Assembly: GCA_017446775.1 (NCBI GenBank)
Contig: JAFSQE010000006.1
Coordinates: 1 to 55,134, forward strand
Source: Bacteroidales bacterium
Lineage (GTDB): Bacteria > Bacteroidota > Bacteroidia > Bacteroidales > UBA932
Length of the DNA stretch: 55,134 nucleotides
Direction: 5' to 3'
Numbering within the stretch: the stretch's first letter is position 1; each line of letters starts with the position of its first letter. Below the pieces are notes generated by a model, which had not been told where the DNA came from, did no database searches, and saw nothing but the letters and a program-made list of their open reading frames with translations. Both the position numbers and the translations under genes were made by a program. This document shows, one piece after another, positions 1 to 13,224 of this stretch.

Positions 1-296
1 CTGCCAAAAGGGAGCCCCGCCCGGCGATGGGTACCCGCAGCGATGCTGCCAAAAGGGAGCCCCGCCCGGCGATGGGTACCCGCAGCGATGCTGCCAAAAG
101 GGAGCCCCGCCCGGCGATGGGTACCGGCACCGACGTGGGTAAGAGGAAACTCCACCCAGTGATGGGTACCGGCAGCGATGCTGCCAAAAGGGAGCCCCGC
201 CCGGCGATGGGTACCCGCAGCGATGCTGCCAAAAGGGAGCCCCGCCCGGCGATGGGTACCCGCAGCGACGTGGGTAAGAGGGAACTCCACCCAGTG
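1..296 (+). repeat. 45-bp in-frame tandem repeat array at the 5' end of cobQ
   Basis: Six complete 45-bp units start at 27, 72, 117, 162, 207 and 252, and a partial unit fills 1-26, so the array runs past the window edge. Each unit is 15 codons starting with ATG. There are two types: A (MGTRSDAAKREPRPA) and B (MGTRSDVGKRELHPV). The order is (A)-A-A-B-A-A-B, which makes two 135-bp higher-order units (27-161 and 162-296). Type B closely resembles the true cobQ start that follows at 297, LHPVMFAGTGSDVGKS, so the array looks like serial duplication of cobQ's own P-loop region. All units keep the cobQ frame and no stop codon interrupts them. Confidence 0.95.
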
Positions 297-1841
297 ATGT
301 TTGCCGGCACCGGCAGCGACGTGGGCAAGAGCGTGCTTGCCACCGCCCTGTGCCGCATCCTTAATCAGGACGGATACTCCCCCGCCCCGTTCAAGGCACA
401 GAACATGGCGCTAAACTCTTTTGCGACCCCGGACGGCCTGGAGATTGGACGGGCGCAGGCGGTGCAGGCCGAGGCGGCAGGACTCGCGCCTCACACCGAT
501 ATGAACCCTCTGCTGCTCAAGCCCCAGAGCGACCACACCTCGCAGGTGGTGCTGGACGGCAAACCCATAGGCAACCGCGACGCTTACGACTATTTCCGCA
601 AACAGGGGCGCGAAGAGCTGCGACAGGCTGTGTTTGCGGCCTTCGACCGGCTGAGCGCCTGCCACAACCCCATAGTGATGGAGGGTGCCGGGAGCCTGGC
701 AGAGATAAATCTGCGCGACAGCGACCTGGTCAACGTCCCGATGGCCCGCTATGCCGATGCCGACATAATCCTTGTGGGCGACATCGACCGCGGCGGCGTA
801 TTTGCAAGTGTGTACGGTTCGCTGATGCTGCTCCCGCCGGAGGACCGCGCCCTTGTAAAGGGCATCATAATCAATAAGTTCCGCGGCGACTTACGGCTGT
901 TCGACGATGGACGCCGTATGCTGGAGGAGCTTTGCGGCATCCCGGTGCTGGGCGTCGTGCCTGTCTTTACCGACATCCACATAGAAGAGGAAGATTCCGT
1001 GGCGCTGGCGGCAAAATCGACCGCTGCGGAGCGGGGTAAGATCAACGTGGCGGTGGTACTGCTGCGCCATATCAGCAATTTTACCGACTTCGATGCCCTG
1101 GAGCGCGACCCCCGCGTGCATCTTTTTTACACCGGCAGCGCAGAAGAAATTGCCAAGGCGGACATCATAATCCTGCCGGGCAGCAAGAGCACCATAGACG
1201 ACCTTTACCACCTTCGCAAGAGCGGTCTGGCGCAGGCGATTCTGCGTGCCCGCCGCGACGGAGCCACGGTGCTTGGTATCTGCGGCGGCTACCAGATGAT
1301 GGGGCGCATGATCTGCGACCCGCACCGCACAGAGGGCGAGATTGAGAGGATGCCGGGGCTGGGGCTGCTGCCCGTGGAGACCGAAATGCTGCCGGAAAAG
1401 GTCACCCGCCAGGTGCGATTCACTATGGCCGGCGGCCCAGGAAATGAATACAAGCGGAGGTACGACGGCGATACCATGACCGGCAACCCAGAAAATGAAT
1501 TCAAGCGGGTAAACGGCAGCGCCACGATGACCGGTTACGAAATCCACATGGGCGAAAGCCGGCCTGCTGATGGAGCGAGCGCTGCGCCGCTTAACATGAT
1601 TGAAGGCGGGCAGGCAGACGGCTGCTACGTGGACGACAAGTGCATGGGGACCTACATCCACGGCATACTGGACAACCCCGCGTTTGTGGAGAGACTGCTG
1701 ACCCCACATTCCGGCAAGGTGAACACCGACGCCCCGACAGAGGGCTACCACACCTTCCGCGAGCGTCAGTACGACCTTCTGGCGGACCACTTCCGCAAAT
1801 ATGTTGATATGGACCTGCTTTACAAGATACTCGGGCGATGA
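27..1841 (+). CDS. cobQ: Cobyric acid synthase CobQ with repeat-derived N-terminal extension
   Basis: Glutamine-dependent amidase that converts adenosylcobyrinic acid a,c-diamide to cobyric acid in the cytoplasm. The conserved protein starts near 252-297. Counting from the Met at 297 (514 residues), the P-loop GTGSDVGKS is at residues 4-12, followed by the ATPase domain and a class I glutamine amidotransferase domain with nucleophile Cys329 in GICGGYQMMG and His455 in GTYIHGIL. The length from 297 is near the family norm apart from a 34-residue repeat insert before the YEIHMG motif. Upstream of 297 are 90 or more residues encoded by the tandem array, and the frame stays open to the window edge, so the real start is unknown: it could be a repeat ATG, 252, 297 or lie outside. 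It overlaps the next gene by ATGA. Confidence 0.93.
   Translation: MGTRSDAAKREPRPAMGTRSDAAKREPRPAMGTGTDVGKRKLHPVMGTGSDAAKREPRPAMGTRSDAAKREPRPAMGTRSDVGKRELHPVMFAGTGSDVGKSVLATALCRILNQDGYSPAPFKAQNMALNSFATPDGLEIGRAQAVQAEAAGLAPHTDMNPLLLKPQSDHTSQVVLDGKPIGNRDAYDYFRKQGREELRQAVFAAFDRLSACHNPIVMEGAGSLAEINLRDSDLVNVPMARYADADIILVGDIDRGGVFASVYGSLMLLPPEDRALVKGIIINKFRGDLRLFDDGRRMLEELCGIPVLGVVPVFTDIHIEEEDSVALAAKSTAAERGKINVAVVLLRHISNFTDFDALERDPRVHLFYTGSAEEIAKADIIILPGSKSTIDDLYHLRKSGLAQAILRARRDGATVLGICGGYQMMGRMICDPHRTEGEIERMPGLGLLPVETEMLPEKVTRQVRFTMAGGPGNEYKRRYDGDTMTGNPENEFKRVNGSATMTGYEIHMGESRPADGASAAPLNMIEGGQADGCYVDDKCMGTYIHGILDNPAFVERLLTPHSGKVNTDAPTEGYHTFRERQYDLLADHFRKYVDMDLLYKILGR
1425..1526 (+). repeat. 51-bp in-frame duplication inside cobQ
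   Basis: Two diverged 17-codon units (1425-1475 and 1476-1526) both begin with Met-Ala/Thr-Gly and share the core GNEYKR / ENEFKR. A third partial start (MTG) leads into the conserved YEIHMG motif at 1527. Most CobQ proteins have a short loop here, so this looks like a local expansion of the loop in the amidotransferase domain. Confidence 0.8.
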
Positions 1842-2968
1842 TAGTTGGGCACGGCGACGATCTTTGGCGGTTCGGGCGGGCGATTGTGGCCAATTTCAGC
1901 TCGAATGTGTATGGCGGCGTGGATCTGACGGCGCTCAAAGAGCACCTGTCCCACCATATGGAAGCTATTTCGCACTATCCGGAGCCGGAACCGTACACTC
2001 TGGAGAAGGCACTGGCCGCACTGCACGGGATTGACCCCGAATGCGTCTGCGCAACCAGCGGCGCCACGGAGGCGATATACCTGATTGCGCTGGCATGGCG
2101 CGGAGCCCGCTCCACTATTCTCCAACCCACTTTCAGCGAATATGCCGACGCCTGCCGCCTGCACGGGCATAGCGTCGCCGGGATAACGGAGCCCCTCTGT
2201 CAAGCCGTGCGCAACGGGACTCTGACCGGGGGCGACGAAACTCTTGCCATAGGTAACGAGAGTCCTGCCGGAGGTGACGAAACTCTTGCCGGAAGTGACA
2301 GACCCGACCTGTTCTGGCTCTGCAACCCCAACAACCCAGACGGCCGTGTGATACCAAAAGGGCAACTGAAGGCGCGGATAGCAAGCAATCCCGACACCAT
2401 ATTTGTAATAGACCAGTCCTACGGATTCTTTACAGAAGATCCTCTGCTCACGCCCACCGAGGCAATTGCCGCCGGGAATGTGCTGCAACTGCACTCCATG
2501 ACCAAGCGCTATGCGATGCCGGGGCTGCGACTGGGATACGTCACCGGCGCAAGGGCACTCATAGAGCGCATTAGAAATGTCCGCATGCCCTGGAGCGTGA
2601 ACGCCCTGGCGATAGAGGCGGGCTTGTATCTGGCAAACAACCCTGACACCGCCCCCATTGACAAACCGGCCCTGCTGAAAGAGGCGCAAAGGCTCCGCAA
2701 CGCCCTTGGCTCGCTGCCCGGCATCAGAGTAGAGCCCACCAGGACACACTTCATGCTCTGCCACCTTGAGCCTGTCACCGACGCCGACCAACAAACCAGG
2801 CAAGGCACCGCCGCCAGTCTCAAGCAATATCTGGCCCGGGAGCACGGCCTGCTGATACGCGACGCCTCCAACTTCGAGGGGCTCACCGCCGGCCATTTCC
2901 GCATCGCCGCACAGACCCCGAAAGAGAACGACCTGCTCATAAACGCAATCCGCGAATACCTCAAATGA
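1838..2968 (+). CDS. cobD: Threonine-phosphate decarboxylase-like aminotransferase (CobD/CobC type)
   Basis: PLP-dependent fold-type I enzyme of 376 residues. By family and context it probably makes (R)-1-aminopropan-2-ol phosphate from threonine phosphate for the nucleotide-loop arm of cobalamin. Visible motifs are the substrate-side CNPNNPDG (Asn163 region) and the PLP lysine Lys223 in SMTKRYAMPGLRLGY. The start is ATG 1838, which overlaps the cobQ stop as ATGA; the stop overlaps cbiB in the same way, so the three genes are probably translationally coupled. Residues 128-155 are a four-fold 7-residue repeat just before the NPNNP strand, absent from typical family members. A histidinol-phosphate aminotransferase is the main alternative, but the neighbours argue for the cobalamin role. 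Confidence 0.85.
   Translation: MIVGHGDDLWRFGRAIVANFSSNVYGGVDLTALKEHLSHHMEAISHYPEPEPYTLEKALAALHGIDPECVCATSGATEAIYLIALAWRGARSTILQPTFSEYADACRLHGHSVAGITEPLCQAVRNGTLTGGDETLAIGNESPAGGDETLAGSDRPDLFWLCNPNNPDGRVIPKGQLKARIASNPDTIFVIDQSYGFFTEDPLLTPTEAIAAGNVLQLHSMTKRYAMPGLRLGYVTGARALIERIRNVRMPWSVNALAIEAGLYLANNPDTAPIDKPALLKEAQRLRNALGSLPGIRVEPTRTHFMLCHLEPVTDADQQTRQGTAASLKQYLAREHGLLIRDASNFEGLTAGHFRIAAQTPKENDLLINAIREYLK
2219..2302 (+). repeat. Four 21-bp in-frame repeats inside cobD
   Basis: Units at 2219, 2240, 2261 and 2282 encode TLTGGDE, TLAIGNE, SPAGGDE and TLAGSDR. They sit in a loop immediately before the DLFWLCNPNNPDG strand, and every unit is a multiple of three bases. Confidence 0.88.
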
Positions 2969-3915
2969 CCCGCATAATCTCAACTCTGGCCGGCTGGCTG
3001 ATGGACGTGCTCTTTGGCGACCCCGCAAGGCTCCCCCATCCCATCGTGGGGTTCGGCAAGCTGATTGCCGCGGGCGAGAAGGCTCTCAACAGAGGCAAAC
3101 ACCGCCGCCTCAAAGGGGCGCTGCTGGCCATCGTCCTTATCGCCGCCACCGCCGCCGCCACCTGGGGCGCTATGTATGGCTTGCAACTGCTGGGCGAAAG
3201 AATCGGAGCAGGAATATGGCTCAGACGCGCCGCAGAGGCCATCCTGATATTCTTCTGCCTGGCCGGCACGACGCTAATCAAAGAGGTGCGCGCGGTATTC
3301 AAAGCGGTAGACCGCAGCCTGGAAGAGGGGCGCAGGCAGGTGGCCCGCATCGTGGGGCGAGACACCGCCAACCTCACCGCCCAGGAGGTGCGTACCGCCG
3401 CCCTGGAAACCCTTGCAGAGAACCTCAACGACGGCGTAATCGCCCCCCTCTTCTGGCTGGCACTGCTTGGTGTGCCTGGGATGATGACATACAAGATGAT
3501 AAACACGCTGGATTCCATGCTGGGCTACCGCAACGAACGGTATATCGATTTCGGGCGCTTTTCTGCCAGGACCGACGATGTCGCGGGCTGGATTCCCTCC
3601 CGCCTGACCGCCTTGCTGATGCTGCTCACATCCGGCAGGCTAAATCTGATAAAAACCGTCCACAGGAATGGCTGCAAGCATCTCAGCCCCAACTCGGGCC
3701 ATCCCGAGGCAGCGCTGGCTGCGATTCTGGACTGCCGCTTTGGCGGGCCGCACGACTACTTTGGGCAGGAGGTGGTAAAACCCTTCATCGGCGACAACGA
3801 CCGCCCGCTGACGACCGCCGACATGGAGGTCGCCACAGCCATAAACCGGTTTTCAGAAATCGTGATGGTGTCGCTGGTATGTCTGACCCAGCTTCTTACT
3901 CCATTATTCTTATAA
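2965..3915 (+). CDS. cbiB: Adenosylcobinamide-phosphate synthase CbiB
   Basis: Integral inner-membrane enzyme that joins aminopropanol (phosphate) to adenosylcobyric acid. The protein has 316 residues, about the usual length. Family hallmarks are visible: the N-terminal DVLFGDP..HPIV, ETLAENLNDGVIAPLFW in the middle, YRNERYIDFGRFSARTDD and NSGHPEAA. Hydrophobic segments lie near residues 45-65, 90-105, 155-170, 205-220 and at the C-terminus. It is the third gene of the cobQ operon, starting inside the previous stop codon. Its 3' end overlaps the convergent lipoprotein gene by 20 bp. Confidence 0.93.
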   Translation: MTRIISTLAGWLMDVLFGDPARLPHPIVGFGKLIAAGEKALNRGKHRRLKGALLAIVLIAATAAATWGAMYGLQLLGERIGAGIWLRRAAEAILIFFCLAGTTLIKEVRAVFKAVDRSLEEGRRQVARIVGRDTANLTAQEVRTAALETLAENLNDGVIAPLFWLALLGVPGMMTYKMINTLDSMLGYRNERYIDFGRFSARTDDVAGWIPSRLTALLMLLTSGRLNLIKTVHRNGCKHLSPNSGHPEAALAAILDCRFGGPHDYFGQEVVKPFIGDNDRPLTTADMEVATAINRFSEIVMVSLVCLTQLLTPLFL

Positions 3916-5170
3916 GGTCGAAGCAGAAGCCGCGGGAGAGTTTTACCCCCGGACTCACAGTGCCGGTAGCCTTGTCGTAGATATACACCTGCGGATATTC
4001 GTCCTCGCCGTCGCCCTCGGTGACACCGATGTAGGCATATTTGGAATCCACCGCGGTACGCTGGGAATAGCGACCGCTGCAATAGCGTAGGGGGGTTCCG
4101 TTACAGCTCACCCGCTCGCGCTGGCAGGTCTTCGTATCTATAAGGGTGTAGAAATGGCTCCGGCTGTCTATCTTGGTGCCCAGAGTCTCGTCGCGGGAAT
4201 AGGCCAGTATTTTGCCGCCGCCTACATACTGGACCGTGAGCAGTCGCCCTTCCGGATCGGGGAATCCGTTCCAGTCGGGGTCAAAGGAGGTCTTGCCAAC
4301 AGTGATGCGACGCAGTACGCCATATTTGGTACCGTCTATTGTAACCATTCCGGCAACGTACATGTTACCTGTTTCGTCGTAAGTAACCAGCGACTGCATC
4401 AGTTCGCCGTAGGCAGCGCTCACCGTCTCTTCCATCACTTTCTCCGGGACTGAGGATTCCATCGCCACTTCCATATTCAGGACATCAATAATAGCCACGC
4501 GGGTTAAGGGTTTGGCATTCTCGTCGGCAGGTTTGAGATGATATATGTAGTACAACGTACCACTGGGGGTTTGTGTGAGGATTCCGGAGGTGGAAAGCGA
4601 ACTGTAGCCACTGGAGATTTTGATATCCATGGTGCCTTCTGATATCACCGCCATGTCAGACTCCCTCAACTTGGACCAGTACACAGTCTTGTGCTCTGCA
4701 TCGGTACCCATTACCAGCAGCGTTTCTCCGTTGTCAAGCCATGCGTGGGTATACTTGCGAGGGTAATATGTGTTTGCTCCGAAAGGTCGCTCGGCATCCA
4801 CCACCACCGACTCGTTTCCAGCCTCGTCGCGCACGATGTGGAACTTTACAAAGCCGCCGGTGGCCTCCTGCGGCACCTGGTAATAATACTTGCCGCGGGT
4901 GATGCTCTCCATGGTATATTTCTGGGTGATATCTATGCCTCGGCCAGTAAACTCCACCTCGGGCTGATCTGCCTCCAGGGAGGTCACCTGCCGCACATAG
5001 GTGCCGTTTTTGTTCTGACCCATGCCGCCGTGCTTGACAGCACATACATAAAGGTCAAACACAGATGCTGCTTCAACCGGGTCCACGGGGGTCGGCTGCG
5101 GTTCGGGGTCACAAGCTGATAACAACATAAGCGCTGTCAATATCAGACAAAAACTGTTAATTCTCTTCAT
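3896..5170 (-). CDS. DUF4374-like lipoprotein
   Basis: A 424-residue lipoprotein. The signal peptide ends in the lipobox LLSAC, followed by an acidic, proline-rich tether. The rest is beta-rich with repeated G-x-LY / YVGGG-type blades, and in my judgement it belongs with the DUF4374 proteins of Bacteroidetes, which often neighbour TonB-dependent receptors. I chose ATG at 5170 because the hydrophobic signal begins there and a TAACTTTG -7 box lies 21 bp upstream; an upstream in-frame extension would run into the promoter and riboswitch. It diverges from btuB, so a surface or periplasmic accessory role in corrinoid capture is possible, but that is inference. Confidence 0.75.
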   Translation of the reverse strand: MKRINSFCLILTALMLLSACDPEPQPTPVDPVEAASVFDLYVCAVKHGGMGQNKNGTYVRQVTSLEADQPEVEFTGRGIDITQKYTMESITRGKYYYQVPQEATGGFVKFHIVRDEAGNESVVVDAERPFGANTYYPRKYTHAWLDNGETLLVMGTDAEHKTVYWSKLRESDMAVISEGTMDIKISSGYSSLSTSGILTQTPSGTLYYIYHLKPADENAKPLTRVAIIDVLNMEVAMESSVPEKVMEETVSAAYGELMQSLVTYDETGNMYVAGMVTIDGTKYGVLRRITVGKTSFDPDWNGFPDPEGRLLTVQYVGGGKILAYSRDETLGTKIDSRSHFYTLIDTKTCQRERVSCNGTPLRYCSGRYSQRTAVDSKYAYIGVTEGDGEDEYPQVYIYDKATGTVSPGVKLSRGFCFDLIRIME

Positions 5171-5191
5171 ATTATCGGGATTATCAGACGT

Positions 5192-5217
5192 CAAAGTTAG
5201 AAAAAATACTATATTTG
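5192..5217. promoter_or_regulatory. Divergent Bacteroidetes promoters for the DUF4374 lipoprotein and btuB
   Basis: TAACTTTG reads leftward (5199 to 5192) toward the lipoprotein, and TATATTTG reads rightward (5210-5217) toward the riboswitch and btuB. Both match the Bacteroidetes -7 consensus TAnnTTTG. The rightward start of transcription should be near 5224, just before the riboswitch. Confidence 0.75.
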
Positions 5218-5226
5218 TGCGCGTTT

Positions 5227-5425
5227 TGGTAATCAGTCGGGGCACACCGCCCCTCTGATGCAAGGGAACCCGGTGAGAGTCCGGGGCTGTACCTGCAGCT
5301 GTAACCCTTTCCAAGGGTCTGACAACCAATGCCACTGGGCGCTGCACCGCCGCCTCTGATGCGGAAAATCGATGCAGAACGCCCGGGAAGGCCGTCAGAC
5401 CGGGGTAGCCAGAAGACCTGCCAAA
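5227..5425 (+). promoter_or_regulatory. Cobalamin (B12) riboswitch
   Basis: This leader has the conserved cobalamin-riboswitch landmarks in order: an AAGGGAACCCGGTGAGAGTC-type core at about 5261-5280, the CTGTACCTGCAGCTGTAA segment at 5287-5304, GCCACTGG at 5331-5338, and the 3' B12 box AGCCAGAAGACCTGCC at 5407-5422. It begins right after the btuB promoter and ends 45 bp before the btuB ATG. It should lower expression of btuB-cbiK when adenosylcobalamin is plentiful. I see no strong intrinsic terminator, so control is probably translational. Confidence 0.95.
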
Positions 5426-5469
5426 ACACATATTTATTACGCGCGTTCAGGAATAAGCGAAAAGCGGAA

Positions 5470-7623
5470 ATGAAGCAAAGATTGCTTTTGAGTTGTATTT
5501 TGCTGCTTGCGGCAAACGCCCTTGCGGCGCAGACCACTCTGCAGGACACAATCCCGGAGACCGTCGTTACGGCCACCGGTACGGAGCATCTGCTCAAGGA
5601 TGCCCCCGTGCAGACCGAGGTTGTGACGCGGCGGATGCTGGACAGCTACGGCGGACGCTCTCTGGAGGATATCCTGAGCGGCCTGACGGCCTCTTTTGCC
5701 TTCAATGAAGACGATATGGGTAGCCAGATGCAGCTGGGCGGCCTTGGCAACAGCTATATCCTGATACTGATAGACGGCAAGCGTATCCACGGCGACGTGG
5801 GCGGCGAGAACGACCTGGCGCTGATCGATCCTCAGACCATAGAGAAGATTGAGATAGTCAAGGGCGCATCCTCTGCTCTGTACGGCAGCGACGCGATTGC
5901 CGGCGTGGTGAACATCATCACCCGCAAACACCGGCAGGAAGGCCTCCTGGTAGAGAACTCCACCCGCTACGGCAGTTACAACGATATCCGCCAGCACAAC
6001 TCCGTCGGCATCAAGAGCGGCCGCTGGACATCGCTCACCAACTTCAATTACCAGCACAGCGACGGCTGGCAGAACACCTCTGTAGAGCATACCTCCAGCA
6101 GCGAGCCGCCGGTGACCGACTCCCGCAACATGACGGTTAACCGCCACACCAACGCCCAGATTGCAGAGCAGCTGACATTCGCGGCTGGCGACAATCTGGA
6201 GCTCTATCTTGGCGGCACCTGGTACGGCAAGCGGATCTATCGCCCCAGCGGCAAATACGCCCACTACGACGTGCACACTTACGATTTGCAGTACCGCAAC
6301 GCATCGGCCTCCGCGGGCGGCAAGTGGAAGGTGAACGCAACCGATGTGGTGACTTTTGACCTTGACTGGAACCGCCACGCCTATATGTACTATTTTACGG
6401 CGACCACTCTGGTAGAGGATTACGAACTTAGCAAGGGAACCCTCTACTACCCGTATTACCCCTATCTGCCCGACCAGACGCAGATGCAGAGTGACCAGCG
6501 GCGCACCATGGCCAGCGTGAAGGGGATCTTCCACCTGCCGGCCGGCAACCTGCTCAGCGCCGGTGCCGAATACCGTTACGACTGGCTTTACTCCCCCACC
6601 CGCGTTGAGGGGAACATTGTGAGCGACTGGACGGCGGCGGTATATGCCCAGGACGAATGGAGCCACGATTTTGATGCGAGCCACAGCATGCATCTGGCGG
6701 CTGGGACGCGCCTGACCTGGAACGGCGCCTTCGGCGTGAAACTCACCCCCAAGGCCTCCGCAATGCTGGCGCTGGGTCTCCCCTGGCGCATCAGGCTTAA
6801 CTGGAGCCAGGGCTTCAAGACCCCGACCCCCAAGGAGCTGCATTACCGTTATATTCGGCAGATGAGCGGCACCTACCTCTATCTGGGCAACCAGAGCCTG
6901 AGGCCTCAGACCAGCAACTACTTCTCGCTGGGCGGCGAATACAACCGCGCCGGGCTTAACATCACATTGACTGGCTATTACAATATGGTGAAGGATATGA
7001 TTACCCTGGTCACCATCCCCAACTATGAGGCGCCGGCAGAGTATATAATCCAATACGACCCCTACCGCGTACGGCAGTATGCCAACATAGACGACGCCCG
7101 CACCATGGGCATCGACCTCAACGCGCGCTACACTACCGGCGAATGGTCGTTTGGCCTGGGTTACAGCTATCTGGACACCGACGCCAACCAGTACGACAGC
7201 GACCACGACAGGATGAAGAAGGTCACAATAGACGGCACCGCACACCACCGCGGCAACTGCTTTACCAGCTGGAACCACCGTTTTTCTCCCGGATACCGCC
7301 TTGGAGCAGGTCTCTACGGCCGCGTGTCCTCTACCCGCTACTACCAGATAGACGGCAACGGAAAAGGATATCAGATATGGCGCATCGCCACCAACCACGA
7401 CTTTGACTTTATTCCCAGCACAGACTGCCGCCTGGAAGCCGGTGTGGACAATATCTTCAACTATGTTGACCGCACCCCCCACGGGCTGCACCTGGGCACC
7501 ACGACCCCCGGCACAACTGTATATGTGGCGCTGACCCTCCGCTTCAAGAGCGGCAAGAAAATAGGCAAATTCTACAATACCATAAACAATAACATCAATT
7601 CAAATCAAAATGAGCAGAATTAG
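5470..7623 (+). CDS. btuB: BtuB-like TonB-dependent outer-membrane corrinoid receptor
   Basis: A 717-residue outer-membrane beta-barrel. It has a signal peptide (hydrophobic stretch ending ANALAAQT), a TonB-box-like PETVVTATG, a plug domain with the conserved VEIVKGASSALYGSDAIAGVVNIIT, then a long barrel ending with an aromatic-rich strand (YVALTLRF). ATG 5470 is chosen because the signal peptide starts there and upstream codons fall in the riboswitch. Control by the B12 riboswitch and the downstream cobaltochelatase identify the cargo as cobalamin or a precursor. The last 14 bases overlap cbiK, indicating coupled translation. Confidence 0.92.
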   Translation: MKQRLLLSCILLLAANALAAQTTLQDTIPETVVTATGTEHLLKDAPVQTEVVTRRMLDSYGGRSLEDILSGLTASFAFNEDDMGSQMQLGGLGNSYILILIDGKRIHGDVGGENDLALIDPQTIEKIEIVKGASSALYGSDAIAGVVNIITRKHRQEGLLVENSTRYGSYNDIRQHNSVGIKSGRWTSLTNFNYQHSDGWQNTSVEHTSSSEPPVTDSRNMTVNRHTNAQIAEQLTFAAGDNLELYLGGTWYGKRIYRPSGKYAHYDVHTYDLQYRNASASAGGKWKVNATDVVTFDLDWNRHAYMYYFTATTLVEDYELSKGTLYYPYYPYLPDQTQMQSDQRRTMASVKGIFHLPAGNLLSAGAEYRYDWLYSPTRVEGNIVSDWTAAVYAQDEWSHDFDASHSMHLAAGTRLTWNGAFGVKLTPKASAMLALGLPWRIRLNWSQGFKTPTPKELHYRYIRQMSGTYLYLGNQSLRPQTSNYFSLGGEYNRAGLNITLTGYYNMVKDMITLVTIPNYEAPAEYIIQYDPYRVRQYANIDDARTMGIDLNARYTTGEWSFGLGYSYLDTDANQYDSDHDRMKKVTIDGTAHHRGNCFTSWNHRFSPGYRLGAGLYGRVSSTRYYQIDGNGKGYQIWRIATNHDFDFIPSTDCRLEAGVDNIFNYVDRTPHGLHLGTTTPGTTVYVALTLRFKSGKKIGKFYNTINNNINSNQNEQN

Positions 7624-8740
7624 GATTATGACTGCCGTGGTACTGGCGGCGCTGACTCTCGGATTCACCTCATGCGATCCGATTGGCAAGAATCAGTACA
7701 ACTACAACACCTATCAGAAGGCAGTCAACCAGACTGTGAACAAGAACAAAAAGAACGACAAGGCTATCCTGCTGGTGGCTTTCGGATCTACCTGGCAGCA
7801 GGCTTTCGATGCTTTTGACAGCACCGTAGAGGCTTACAAGCAGGCTTTCCCCGGCTACGACGTGTTCCTCTCCTTCTCTTCTGCAATCTGCATCAACCGT
7901 GCAGCTGCCGGCGAGAACGTCGAGCCCCGCAACTTTTATGCTCCGCCGTTCTGGCTCACCGCATTCGCACAGAAGGGTGTTCAGTATAAAGAGGTTGTCG
8001 TACAGTCGCTGCAGGTAATCCCCGGCGAGGAGTACACCCGCGTAATCAACTACATCAAGGACTTTGCAAACAACGCCAACGGCGACCTGGACGATGACTA
8101 TCTGGCAAACGTTGAGCTTAAGCTCGGCACCCCGCTGCTTCAGGATCCCGAAGCCGATGTCAAGGCAACCGCAAAAGCCCTCAACGACCTTTACAAGAGC
8201 CAGGCAGCCGGCAACATTGTGGCTTTCATGGGCCACGGTAACCCCGACAGCTACGACACCTATAAGGCAAACATCCGCTACACCCAGCTCGAAGAGGCTC
8301 TCCAGACACTCAGCCCCAACTACTTTGTAGGCACCGTGGATATGATGGAGAACTTCAAGACCCACGTTTACGAGCGCATGGCTGCAGCCGGTCTTAACAC
8401 AAGCAACAAGAAAGTCTACCTGCACCCTCTGATGTCCATCAGCGGTGACCACGGCCACAACGATATGGCTGGTGACGACACTCCCGAGAAGTTCGAGGGC
8501 AAGAGCTTTACCTTTGCCGACCTGCTGGCAGAAGCCAACGAAGAGGGCGAGGTTGAAGATTGCAGCTGGAAGGTATTCTTTGGCGCAAACGGTTCTGGTT
8601 TCGTTTGCAACGACAACACCATCATAGACAAAGGTCTGTTGGAGCTTCCCACCGTACGCCAGATTTGGATGAACCACACCCAGGCCGCTATCGACGGCGA
8701 ACCTCTGGACTACTATCACTCAAAGAATCCTGAAGAATAG
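7610..8740 (+). CDS. cbiK: Lipoprotein sirohydrochlorin cobaltochelatase CbiK
   Basis: Class II chelatase that inserts cobalt into sirohydrochlorin, the entry step of the anaerobic (cobalt-early) B12 route. The 376-residue protein starts with a lipoprotein signal ending GFTSC, so it should sit in the periplasm or on a membrane surface rather than in the cytoplasm. The chelatase core begins at KAILLVAFGSTW. Likely metal-site residues are His209 in MGHGNPDSY and His281 in SGDHGHNDM, matching the family's two conserved histidines. It is co-transcribed with btuB under the B12 riboswitch. Periplasmic CbiK forms are known in Desulfovibrio; a periplasmic or scavenging role here is inference. Confidence 0.9.
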   Translation: MSRIRIMTAVVLAALTLGFTSCDPIGKNQYNYNTYQKAVNQTVNKNKKNDKAILLVAFGSTWQQAFDAFDSTVEAYKQAFPGYDVFLSFSSAICINRAAAGENVEPRNFYAPPFWLTAFAQKGVQYKEVVVQSLQVIPGEEYTRVINYIKDFANNANGDLDDDYLANVELKLGTPLLQDPEADVKATAKALNDLYKSQAAGNIVAFMGHGNPDSYDTYKANIRYTQLEEALQTLSPNYFVGTVDMMENFKTHVYERMAAAGLNTSNKKVYLHPLMSISGDHGHNDMAGDDTPEKFEGKSFTFADLLAEANEEGEVEDCSWKVFFGANGSGFVCNDNTIIDKGLLELPTVRQIWMNHTQAAIDGEPLDYYHSKNPEE

Positions 8741-8751
8741 GACTTAAAGCA

Positions 8752-9750
8752 TTAGAGCCCGGACAGCTCTAGTAATTCGGATATGGTAATTGCAAGGGTG
8801 GCGGTTTCGCTGCCCTTGCTTGTTTTGTAACCGTCTTTACCGGCAGTTATCACCGTATCCGATTCGATATCCTTACCGGCAAGGATGCCGTTGCGCCGCA
8901 GCGCCTTGGCCACCATGGCGCAGGCGGTATCATCGCCCTCCAGACGCACTTTTGCCCTGAATTCGGGCTCGACGCGATAGAGGCCGGTCTGTTGTTCGAA
9001 AGCCACCCCCTTGCGGCGGAAGAACTGCTCAAGGGTGCCGTCCAGCGTCAGGTCCTCCGGGCATCCGGCCACCACAGCGCGTCCCTGCGCCATCAGCCAG
9101 AGACGGTCGGCTATCTGAAGCGCCAGCTCCAGGTCGTGGGTAGAGAGGAATATCGTCTTGGCTGTCTCGCGCGAGAGGCGATGCAGCAGGTGGAGTATCT
9201 CTATCTTGCTGGGATAATCCAGAAATGCGGTGGGTTCGTCCAGGAATATTACCGGAGTCTCCTGCGCCAGCGCCTTGGCAATCATCACCTTTTGCCGTTC
9301 GCCATCGGAAAGGGTCTGCACCAGTCGCTCTTTCAGGGTGGTGATACCCACCAGCTCCAACGCCTGATCCACTATTGCCCTATCCTCTGCGCAGAGCTTC
9401 CCCCAGAACCCGGTATAGGGGCTGCGGCCAAGGCCCACCAGCTCCGCCACGGTCATGTTCTGGAGCACGGTACGCTCTGTAAGGACAACTGCCACCACGG
9501 TGGCCAGCTCCTTCTCGCGATAGGCGCCCAGGGGCTTGTCCATAATGTAGATATCGCCCTTGAGGGCAGGCTGGAATCCAGCCAGGGTGCGCAGCAGGGT
9601 TGATTTACCGGCACCGTTCTCGCCCAGCAGGCAGGTAAGCTCGCCGCTGCGCAGGGTATCAGTAATACCTTCAGAAACGACTTTCACCGAGTGTTTGCCG
9701 GTATAGCCGATGGAGAGATTCTCGATACGTATAGTGTTGCTGCGTGTCAT
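8752..9750 (-). CDS. btuD: BtuD/FecE-like ABC transporter ATPase with C-terminal extension
   Basis: ATP-binding subunit of the corrinoid-type importer encoded with btuC and btuF. In 332 residues it shows Walker A GENGAGKST (43-51), signature LSDGE (147-151), Walker B VIFLDEP (167-173) and the switch His205. Typical BtuD/FecE proteins end near residue 250-260; here about 70 more residues follow (from about 262) with no motif I can identify. It starts within the btuC stop codon (ATGA) and is last in a five-gene operon. Its 3' end lies 11 bp from the convergent cbiK stop. Confidence 0.9.
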   Translation of the reverse strand: MTRSNTIRIENLSIGYTGKHSVKVVSEGITDTLRSGELTCLLGENGAGKSTLLRTLAGFQPALKGDIYIMDKPLGAYREKELATVVAVVLTERTVLQNMTVAELVGLGRSPYTGFWGKLCAEDRAIVDQALELVGITTLKERLVQTLSDGERQKVMIAKALAQETPVIFLDEPTAFLDYPSKIEILHLLHRLSRETAKTIFLSTHDLELALQIADRLWLMAQGRAVVAGCPEDLTLDGTLEQFFRRKGVAFEQQTGLYRVEPEFRAKVRLEGDDTACAMVAKALRRNGILAGKDIESDTVITAGKDGYKTSKGSETATLAITISELLELSGL

Positions 9751-10784
9751 TCTGCCGATTCCTCCTTTCTCCGTTTAAAAAGCACTACCGCCACCACGGG
9801 GGCGCCGATAAGGGCTGTTACCGAGTTGACAGGGAGCGCCCCTTCAAAGCCAGGCATGCGGGCTATCAGGTTGCACAGCAGCGCCAGCGATGCCCCAGCC
9901 AGCATCGATGCCGGCATCAGGGTACGATGGTCGCTGGTGCGGAAGATGCCCCGGCAAAGGTGCGGTACCGCCAGGCCCAGGAAGGTGATAGGGCCGCAAT
10001 ATGCCGTTACGATAGCCACCAGCACGCCAGCCGATGCTATCACTGCCATCCGCGCCCGGCGGACGTTGAGGCCCAGATTGCGGGCATACCCGTCGCCAAG
10101 CAGCAGCAGGTTCAGGGTCTTTACCAGCAGCAGCGCCAGCGGCAGCAACACCGCCATTATTATCACAAAGGTGGTCACCTGACCGCCAGAAACCCTTGCA
10201 AAACTACCCAGGCCCCAGACCACATAAGCCCGCACATCCTCTTCTGCACTGAAGAATTTGAGCACGCCGATGATTGCGGTGGCCACGTAACCTATCATCA
10301 CACCTATAATCAGAAGCGTGACATTGCCTTTAACTTTCTGTGAGACGTACACAATCAGCAGCATCACCGCCAGGGAGCCGATTATGGCAGCCACGGTCAT
10401 CGCCACCTCCCCCATATATCCGATGCTGCTAAGCGCGACACCAGCCAGACGGCCGGAGAGCAGCACCACAAAGGCCACGCCCAGGCTCGCGCCGGAGCTC
10501 ACGCCCAGCACAGAAGGTCCTGCCAGAGGGTTGCGGAACACCGTCTGCATCTGCAAGCCCGCTACCGACAGACCGGCTCCCGCCATAAGGGCGGTGAATG
10601 CCTGCGGCAGGCGCGATTTGAGGATGATATTCTGCCAGATGGGGTCTACGCCGGTGGCGCCGGTAAGTATCTTCCAGGTACTTGCGGCGGGGATTGCAAC
10701 AGAACCCACCAGCAGGTTGAGGAAGAACAGCAGCAATACCGATACCGCCGTAAGAATCATTCCAATAGCTACTTTGCGTTTCAT
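9747..10784 (-). CDS. btuC: BtuC/FecCD-like ABC transporter permease
   Basis: Inner-membrane permease of the BtuCD/FecCD family, 345 residues with about nine or ten hydrophobic helices. Family motifs are visible: LPQAFTALMAGAGLSVAGLQMQ and NPLAGPSVLGVSSGASLG near the N-terminal third, and GPITFLGLAVPHLCR in the C-terminal third. It is coupled by ATGA overlaps to btuF upstream and btuD downstream. Family members also import haem and siderophores, but cbiA in the same operon supports corrinoid as the cargo. Confidence 0.92.
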   Translation of the reverse strand: MKRKVAIGMILTAVSVLLLFFLNLLVGSVAIPAASTWKILTGATGVDPIWQNIILKSRLPQAFTALMAGAGLSVAGLQMQTVFRNPLAGPSVLGVSSGASLGVAFVVLLSGRLAGVALSSIGYMGEVAMTVAAIIGSLAVMLLIVYVSQKVKGNVTLLIIGVMIGYVATAIIGVLKFFSAEEDVRAYVVWGLGSFARVSGGQVTTFVIIMAVLLPLALLLVKTLNLLLLGDGYARNLGLNVRRARMAVIASAGVLVAIVTAYCGPITFLGLAVPHLCRGIFRTSDHRTLMPASMLAGASLALLCNLIARMPGFEGALPVNSVTALIGAPVVAVVLFKRRKEESAE

Positions 10785-11914
10785 TTAAGCAGTGAGTAAA
10801 ATACCGGCTGGTAATCTTCCGGCAGCAGTTCTGGGTGAAGTATATGTATCAGGTCGGAGAGCACCACATCGGGCTGCACCGGCATATTCTCATAGAAAGG
10901 GCGCTCGCGCATGTTGCAGTATATCACCCCTTTCTCTTTGAAGGCGGTTAGGTCGGCATAACGGGCATCGGTGGCACGCAGGGCATCATAGCTGTAGGTG
11001 CCGTCGTAGCTGTTAACTATGCGCCAGTAGCGGGCGGCGGCGGTCTTGCTGTAGACCGTCTCAAAGTCCAGATTCATGCCACCGGAGTGTTCGTCGTCGG
11101 GCAGGAAATACTCGCCGCCGGCATCGCGGAATATCTGCGCCAGAAAGCTGCGGCCGCCTCCAACATACCAGTTGCCGCCGTGCAATTCTCCGCTTAGCAC
11201 CACGGGGCGGTTTTCAACGTTGGCGGTGAGTTCCCTGAGGGCGTTATAGCGGGCCTCGATGGCCGCGAAGGTTGTGTTGGCCTTCTCCTCCCCGCCTATC
11301 AGCATGCCGATAAACTTGATCCACTCTGCCTGCCCCAGCGGGGTCGTCTCTTTATAACCCAGGTGGGGTACCAGCGGCACGTCCACACCACGCAGCGCCT
11401 CATATCCGCCGCGTTTGAAGGGGGATATAAGTATCAGGCCGGGGTCCAGCGCCAGCACGGTCTCGTTGTCAAAATTCCCCTCTATGCCAATTTTATTGAC
11501 CTTACCCTCTTTGATGCGCTCCTTTACATCTTCGTTAAAAAGATGGCGGGTGCTGGTTATGCCGCTCACCTTCTCCAGCGCGTCCAGGCAGATAAAGTTG
11601 GAGAGCTGCAGGTTGGTCATGCAAACGATGCGGTCTACGGGCACCTCAATCTTCCGGTAGCCCTCCGGCACCGCAGGGTTTGTGCCGCGCTCCACCAGCA
11701 TAAAGCGAAAGATATCCCTGCTTTCGCCCTGCGGGTCGGTGATATCCACCAGGCAGCCGCCATCGATATAGCGCAGCGCAAATCCCTTGGCATATTTCGC
11801 CTCCACGGCACCATCCTTAGCCTCGGGTAGCGGTGCAGCGGTGCGGTTGCGGCCGGCATTTTTGCACGCGGCCAGCGAGAGCAGCATCAGCAGTATGACT
11901 ATATATCTTTTCAT
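10781..11914 (-). CDS. btuF: BtuF-like periplasmic binding lipoprotein
   Basis: Substrate-binding subunit of the importer. The signal peptide ends in LLSLAAC, a lipobox, so it is anchored to a membrane. The mature part has the class III binding-protein pattern: a RIVCMTNLQLSNFICLDAL..VSGIT opening strand, DPGLILISPF, and a second lobe starting around RPVVLSGELHGGNWYVGGG. I chose ATG 11914, which overlaps the cbiA stop as ATGA like every other junction in the operon, over a TTG two codons earlier. Length from there is 377 residues. Confidence 0.88.
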   Translation of the reverse strand: MKRYIVILLMLLSLAACKNAGRNRTAAPLPEAKDGAVEAKYAKGFALRYIDGGCLVDITDPQGESRDIFRFMLVERGTNPAVPEGYRKIEVPVDRIVCMTNLQLSNFICLDALEKVSGITSTRHLFNEDVKERIKEGKVNKIGIEGNFDNETVLALDPGLILISPFKRGGYEALRGVDVPLVPHLGYKETTPLGQAEWIKFIGMLIGGEEKANTTFAAIEARYNALRELTANVENRPVVLSGELHGGNWYVGGGRSFLAQIFRDAGGEYFLPDDEHSGGMNLDFETVYSKTAAARYWRIVNSYDGTYSYDALRATDARYADLTAFKEKGVIYCNMRERPFYENMPVQPDVVLSDLIHILHPELLPEDYQPVFYSLLK

Positions 11915-13224
11915 TTCCAAAGGTCCATTATATCTGTTTCGCCCCAGTATAGGTGGGTGTAGCCGGCTATTGTATTCCTATAGCGATAGAGGGGCGTTGC
12001 CACCTGTTCGCCGTGGGCATCGTATTGCTGTGCCACAGAGGGCATTGCTGCAGGATTGATAACAGAAGAGTAGTGGAATTCGTGACCACGGAACTCTTTG
12101 CCGTTTTGAAGCCGGACGCTCCGGTAGCCCAAGTGCAGCCGCGCCCCCTCCATAGTGGTTTCCAACGGCAGCACGCCGCACATACTGTACGGGCCGCCGG
12201 GGATGGCGTTTATCGCTCCGGTAAGGTATATCATTCCGCCACATTCAGCCAGGATCCGGCCACCGGCATCGGCATAAGCTTTTATTTGCCCTTTCAGCTT
12301 GCTGCGCTCTGCCAGCTGCCCTGCGAAGAGTTCCGGATAGCCGCCGGGAAGATATAACAGGTCTGTTTGGGGCAGCTCGTCGCCAGAGAGCGGACTGAAG
12401 AAGGTCACGCTGCCCAGCTGCTCCAGCCGGGCGATATTCTCCCGGTATATGAAGTTGAAGGCGGAGTCACGGGCCACGGCGATTCGCATCGCGCCCTTCG
12501 CTGCCATATTGTGCTGCAGCCCGGACGGTTCGTGCCTGGGACTTTTGAATTCACCGCTGCAAGCCGCCAGCAGAGCATCGATATCGACATTATGTTCCAC
12601 GATTTGCGCGGCTCGCTCTATCCACGCCTCCATCTGCTGTTCTGCCGCCAGGGTCAGCCCAAGATGGCGCGAAGGGACCTCCAGACCATCTTCGCGGGGC
12701 ATAAATCCGAAGCATCTGACTCCGGCATCCTCCGCCGCCTGGCTCAGCAGCAGCTTGTGTCTTTCAGATGCCACCTGGTTGAATACCACGCCGGCAATCT
12801 TGATGGCTGGGTTGAAGCTCTTTGTCCCGTGCAGCAGCGCCGCCACGCTATAGGCGGTGGATTTTGCACCGACCACCAGAACAATGGGGATATCCAGTAT
12901 CTCAGCAATCCCGGCAGCACTTCCGCGGCTGCGGTCGTAGCCGTCAAAAAGCCCCATCGCCCCCTCCACTATGCAGGCGTCGGCATCTGCACCGTAACGG
13001 GCATAGAGATCGCGGATATGCGTCTTGGAAGAGAACCAGCTGTCAAGATTCACCGATTCCCGGCCCGATGCGTGGGCGTGGAATTTTGTATCGATATAGT
13101 CTGGTCCGCACTTATATGGCTGCACCTTTTTCCCGCGACGGCTCAGCGCCCGCAGCAGACCCATCGTGAAGGTGGTCTTGCCGCTGCCGGATGCCGGCGC
13201 ACCTATAAGCAACTGCGGTTTCAT
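11911..13224 (-). CDS. cbiA: Cobyrinic acid a,c-diamide synthase CbiA
   Basis: Amidates the a and c acetate side chains of cobyrinic acid using glutamine and ATP. In 437 residues there is a P-loop GAPASGSGKTT near residues 8-18, the dethiobiotin-synthetase-like domain with KVQPYKCGPDYIDT, and a C-terminal glutamine amidotransferase domain with nucleophile Cys328 in ILAECGGMIYL. It lies between a TonB receptor and btuF in a single overlapping operon rather than with cobQ, which is unusual and ties amidation to corrinoid uptake. Both borders are ATGA overlaps. Confidence 0.93.
   Translation of the reverse strand: MKPQLLIGAPASGSGKTTFTMGLLRALSRRGKKVQPYKCGPDYIDTKFHAHASGRESVNLDSWFSSKTHIRDLYARYGADADACIVEGAMGLFDGYDRSRGSAAGIAEILDIPIVLVVGAKSTAYSVAALLHGTKSFNPAIKIAGVVFNQVASERHKLLLSQAAEDAGVRCFGFMPREDGLEVPSRHLGLTLAAEQQMEAWIERAAQIVEHNVDIDALLAACSGEFKSPRHEPSGLQHNMAAKGAMRIAVARDSAFNFIYRENIARLEQLGSVTFFSPLSGDELPQTDLLYLPGGYPELFAGQLAERSKLKGQIKAYADAGGRILAECGGMIYLTGAINAIPGGPYSMCGVLPLETTMEGARLHLGYRSVRLQNGKEFRGHEFHYSSVINPAAMPSVAQQYDAHGEQVATPLYRYRNTIAGYTHLYWGETDIMDLWK

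Follow-up and report, generated by a model that had tools for sequence, protein, structure and literature searches.

The window, by which we mean the whole 55,134-nucleotide stretch analysed here, is the complete contig C14 of a Bacteroidales assembly of 2,002,829 bases in 35 contigs, and its first base is a contig end that falls within cobQ, the gene for cobyric acid synthase (Table 1). The cobQ product scores well above its family cutoffs (TIGR00313, 491.8 against 309.9 bits; NF001989, 613.6 against 273), and in an alignment of 38 sequences the invariant columns include C419 and H545 as well as those of the P-loop, with the P-loop and the glutamine amidotransferase Cys intact; which of the invariant residues are catalytic is our assumption. 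Compared with the sister genome G006, which of the congeners with cobQ is the closest (CobQ core 91.7% identical in amino acids), core cobQ has a dN/dS of 0.067 over 374 codons, while five other intact genes or gene parts of the cob locus, a RAYT-like gene included, lie at 0.073-0.119 and cobC at 0.16. The AlphaFold model has a mean pLDDT of 81.5, with a well-formed, high-pLDDT core and an intact first strand at residues 90-94; residues 1-82, encoded by a tandem array, and residues 476-496, encoded by a second insertion, fall below 50. Further along the window a cobalamin riboswitch (RF00174, 91.2 bits) lies at 5210-5439, the only Rfam match in positions 1-12000, and the gene downstream of it at 5329-7623 is presumably TonB-receptor-like, as named from its sequence.

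Table 1. Features at the cobQ end of the window
Feature	Position	Strand	Details
45-bp tandem array	1..268	+	45 bp x 6.0, TRF score 431; at least 6 units, A-type (AAKREPRPAMGTRSD) and B-type (VGKRxLHPVMGTGSD); truncated by contig edge, base 1
cobQ (cobyric acid synthase) ORF	3..1841	+	TIGR00313, NF001989; 612 aa; open to contig edge, true start probably outside contig
135-bp higher-order repeat (A-A-B)	26..299	+	TRF; 135 bp x 2.0, two copies, 97% match, score 520
Last B unit running into gene	255..299	+	255-280 duplicates P-loop codons; 285-299 is the gene's own LHPVM
Functional P-loop of CobQ, GTGSDVGKS	306..332	+	invariant columns G94 T95 S97 G100 K101 S102, 38-sequence alignment
Second in-frame array in cobQ	1421..1534	+	51-bp unit x 2.2; 26-27 residue insertion missing from six congeners; predicted disordered
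In-frame array in cobC-like gene	2219..2299	+	21 bp x 3.9; gene (threonine-phosphate decarboxylase-like) at 1838-2968

The array at the start of cobQ is confirmed as a genuine feature of the assembly, and the tandem 45-bp units that an earlier note on this DNA had described ahead of the gene are indeed there. That note read the units as A-A-B-A-A-B; the order and the nesting hold, but the phase does not, and slicing every 45 bp from base 1 gives one further A unit, A A A B A A B, with the final B entering the gene. Its count of six units plus a partial one stands only as a minimum, because base 1 is the contig end; for the same reason the full length of the array and the true start of cobQ are out of view. 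Every unit is a multiple of three with an in-frame ATG, as had been claimed, and the frame is kept into cobQ, although the three reverse frames run open through the array as well, which makes the in-frame ATGs and the open frame weak evidence. What we find are near-identical tandem units within an ORF, with a unit length that is a multiple of three.

Where did the unit come from? The B unit contains cobQ's own LHPVM and SDVGK codons. Counting on the letters, the last B copy (255-280) has the same base as the gene's own loop (306-331) at 23 of 26 positions, and the LHPVM codons at 285-299 recur in the B copy at 150-164 with all 15 bases identical. Two AAGAG words occur in this part of the window, one just before LHPVM and the other within the P-loop codons, and doubling the 51 bp between them yields ...GKRELHPVMFAGTGSDVGKRELHPVMFAGTGSDVGKSV, which is the observed B junction. 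A duplication between these words creates GKRELHPVM, and this explains why the unit has Arg where the working loop has Ser; the earlier reading of the array as built from the gene's own P-loop start is supported. The B unit is without 6 bp that encode Phe-Ala in the gene. At up to three mismatches the array unit has six matches, all within the array and none elsewhere in the assembly, which led us to reject a dispersed mobile repeat of the REP/BIME kind. Comparison of the letters shows in this way that the unit derives from the gene's own P-loop start.

The order of events would be as follows. A 51-bp tandem duplication between the AAGAG words would have set a second copy of the gene start ahead of itself, producing GK-R in place of GK-S at the junction; loss of 6 bp (Phe-Ala) would leave 45 bp; one copy would then have diverged into A, after which slippage or unequal recombination would have multiplied the A-A-B blocks. 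Of the 45 bases, 12 distinguish A from B units, and there are differences between the two B copies as well. The synonymous difference between A and B is 0.56 (uncorrected) and the non-synonymous 0.17, for a pN/pS of 0.31 in the cobQ frame, the lowest of the six frames on very few sites (Fisher p 0.044 on rounded counts). The 12 substitutions, few as they are, comprise by our count 1 at the first, 5 at the second and 6 at the third codon position, which is not a clean coding pattern. Since 0.56 is of the order of the dS of 0.75 for the whole comparison of the source genome with G006, the array is not simply fresh slippage: it would be either old and lost in G006 or fast-changing, and either a period of time separates the first copy from the last homogenisation or change has been rapid.

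Among 26 genomes of the genus, cobQ is found at E <= 1e-50 in seven, the source genome included. The other six have no array before or in the gene at TRF score 50, and the unit is missing from all 25 other genomes. In G006, MEATQSTQAVSPQYSPKEKA stands before LHPVM in place of the array (the start codon is presumed). Wider afield, we inspected the residues before FKAQN and the TRF consensus (first 40 letters) at the loci of 80 relatives, from a scan of at least 591, and saw no P-loop-derived array before cobQ; 14 of the 80 loci have other small tandem repeats in the stretch that runs from 300 bp ahead of the ORF to the end of the ORF. Literature searches for cobyric acid synthase with tandem repeat returned no paper titled on such a leader. 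The statement in the earlier note that no such CobQ leader is known, and the search of close relatives that it proposed, thus come to the same result, and the array appears lineage-specific, seen in none of the relatives examined. Separately, heptamer (7/21-bp) repeats stand inside or at the start of other Bacteroidales cobQ ORFs (L060 3305-3356, L030 4350-4390, L033 2958-2990). A plasmid relative was also considered and rejected: tblastn of the array against 72,556 records gave a single one, from Euzebya pacifica (38.3% identity, E 2e-14), which we take as compositional because an annotated hypothetical gene occupies the opposite strand there.

The in-frame ATG in every unit could suggest that the array is a series of translation starts whose number tunes the amount of CobQ, one of three options that the earlier note had raised. 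In 72 of the 80 relatives the nearest Met lying at least 7 residues before the P-loop GT (a lower limit of our choosing) is 7-18 residues before it, with a median of 11, and LHPVM-like residues precede the P-loop in most of the 80. The region where relatives usually start is here occupied by the array, and the nearest upstream in-frame ATG, at 252, is 18 residues before GT, at the far end of the relatives' range, which speaks for start sites within the units. Against it, the 50-nt folding energies at the six array ATGs run from -13.8 to -20.2 kcal/mol, far below the means of -4.2 at 33 presumed gene starts in the window and -4.4 kcal/mol at the cobQ starts of relatives (72 of 80); they resemble the 326 internal Met codons of the window (mean -10.9), unlike gene starts. 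None of the 33 gene starts is as low as the three ATGs at -20.2, none as low as that at 297, and two of the 33 are as low as the other two. Moreover, base -3 is G at all six ATGs, while published work describes Bacteroidetes as doing without Shine-Dalgarno use and as favouring start regions that are unstructured and rich in A, have A at -3 and contain few additional AUGs close by (PMC6847099; PMC3155529). The unit ATGs do not resemble start sites of the host organism, and we regard a start array as disfavoured and very improbable; putative tuning of CobQ by copy number finds no support in this analysis. The start at 297 that had been proposed as the conserved one was likewise rejected: its Met is residue 91, within the first predicted strand, which begins at residue 90, and closer to GT than the 7-18 residues of the relatives, and in terms of the model a start there is unlikely. 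We infer that the cobQ start codon lies upstream of base 1.

Since the contig starts within the array, and since tandem repeats are described as causing assembly errors (PMC6868369), the assembler might have made the units, or set their number, at the contig end. Sequence is missing there: the gene order in G006 is cobJ, RAYT-like gene, cobO, cobQ, cobC, cbiB, and cobO, just upstream of cobQ in that genome, has no close match in our assembly (best 34%). Contig C15 carries a RAYT-like gene, cobJ, cobL and cbiG/cobM, and together with the G006 order and the want of a close cobO this implies that cobO and the missing part of the array should lie in the gap between C15 and C14; the other half of the array was sought at the other contig ends of the assembly and none was found. 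However, the 12 differences between A and B and those between the two B copies show that the units do not repeat a single read, the frame is maintained into the gene, and further in-frame arrays are situated well within contigs (1421-1534 and 2219-2299 in the window; cobO and cobC in G006). An assembly artefact is accordingly unlikely, though of the alternatives considered here it is not the least plausible.

Those other arrays raise a further question, namely whether the cob locus is a local hotspot whose arrays are made or fed by a neighbouring transposase of the single-strand-processing (RAYT/Y1-like) type. All further TRF arrays of the window likewise fall in cob genes, and 51 kb of it have none. 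In G006, cobO (adenosyltransferase) has 24-bp in-frame repeats (L115 9918-9996), and the cobC-like genes of the source genome and of G006 (L115 12452-12881) carry in-frame arrays at one and the same position, with different units and lengths; the G006 insertion makes its product 496 aa against 328-337 in four congeners, while that of G008 is 408 aa from the first Met owing to an upstream in-frame Met. The arrays of cobQ, of the next gene and of the sister genome are built from unrelated units. In 712 kb sampled from the source genome there are 28 merged arrays, 16 of them at score >=80, and four of the 16, one intergenic, fall within 10.3 kb of cob DNA (p 7e-5, or 0.0012 after dropping the array that drew attention); in G006 three of six strong arrays fall in the 10.5 kb of cob DNA out of 353 kb (p 5e-4). 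Both genomes with arrays at the cob locus also have a RAYT-like gene in it, whereas G002, G007, G008, G012 and G019 have no arrays at their cob loci and no RAYT match beside cobQ, on contigs three of which are shorter than 8 kb. Within 1 kb of three of the four RAYT-like genes of the source genome there is an array (random mean 0.21-0.36, p 0.0002-0.0018), within 500 bp of two of the four (p 0.009-0.025), and across the genus arrays occur at 7 of 30 RAYT loci against 4.3% of random windows.

These associations have to be set against several points. The thresholds were picked after seeing the data, the source genome and G006 are sisters and count as one evolutionary event, and without L172, L173 and L200 an array is found at only 4 of 27 loci (p 0.027). 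Moreover, the nearest RAYT orthologues (L174-L178) are without arrays, the cobQ unit is home-made rather than a dispersed REP, and the RAYT-like proteins beside cob (C15 and G006) have no Pfam match; the Y1_Tnp model PF01797 is matched, at 4.5e-05, by a C22 relative with 27% identity. The link between RAYT-like genes and arrays is thus suggestive and post hoc. That the B12 locus is a place where conserved enzymes gain in-frame arrays at termini and loops, fed by a RAYT-like single-strand nuclease, to give length-variable Cob enzymes, strikes us as a long shot, slightly less probable than the assembly artefact. Individual loci show arrays beside RAYT-like genes. At L141 a 13/52-bp array starts 15 bp after the RAYT-like gene (217-1417), between it and cobJ; at L143 a RAYT-like gene with a stop adjoins a tyrosine recombinase gene (1381-2829) whose arm-binding and SAM-like domains are separated by an in-frame 36/72-bp array; and at the RAYT-like locus L201 (G007:C107) TRF arrays with periods from 8 to 128 lie on both sides of the gene.

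How does the array compare with known systems? It is like bacterial intragenic (coding) minisatellites, or VNTRs, in its head-to-tail, homogenised units that are multiples of three within an ORF and in its predicted disordered product; it is unlike them in that the catalytic loop of the host gene itself supplied the unit and in that the host is a housekeeping biosynthetic enzyme, not a surface protein. REP/BIME elements with their RAYT (TnpAREP), including the in-frame REP insertions described in tnpAREP genes (PMC6006769), share the frame-keeping repeats and the RAYT-like gene in the same locus, but the cobQ unit is confined to one array and cobQ-derived, not a dispersed palindrome. The in-frame tandem duplications described in KPC beta-lactamases (PMC12593533) resemble it as slippage-type duplications in an enzyme gene, although the cobQ array stands at the N-terminus, consists of multiple diverged copies and is under no known selection. 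The minisatellite is unusual in its source and place and ordinary in kind.

We consider it likely that the array is a lineage-specific coding minisatellite that stands in frame at the N-terminal end of a conserved cobQ, best read as a tolerated disordered tail. In-frame arrays of a similar kind but with other units, in cobQ itself, in the next gene and in cobO and cobC of G006, speak for this reading. Of the three options in the earlier note, whose interpretation is overall partly supported, a protein extension born by slippage or recombination fits best. With a start codon upstream of base 1, translation would add the array to the enzyme as a basic, disordered and tolerated tail, and since the units preserve the frame, the length of the tail could drift; both its translation and its neutrality are presumed. 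Speaking against this explanation, arrays are over-represented in the cob genes of two genomes, which slippage alone does not explain. More generally, the array offers a view of the stepwise birth of a repetitive N-terminal extension from an enzyme's own catalytic loop, in which the point of duplication explains the junction residue. The cob hotspot, if real, would make it possible to test where conserved bacterial enzymes acquire in-frame minisatellites, and would warn that gene-start annotation and MAG assembly fail at these places.
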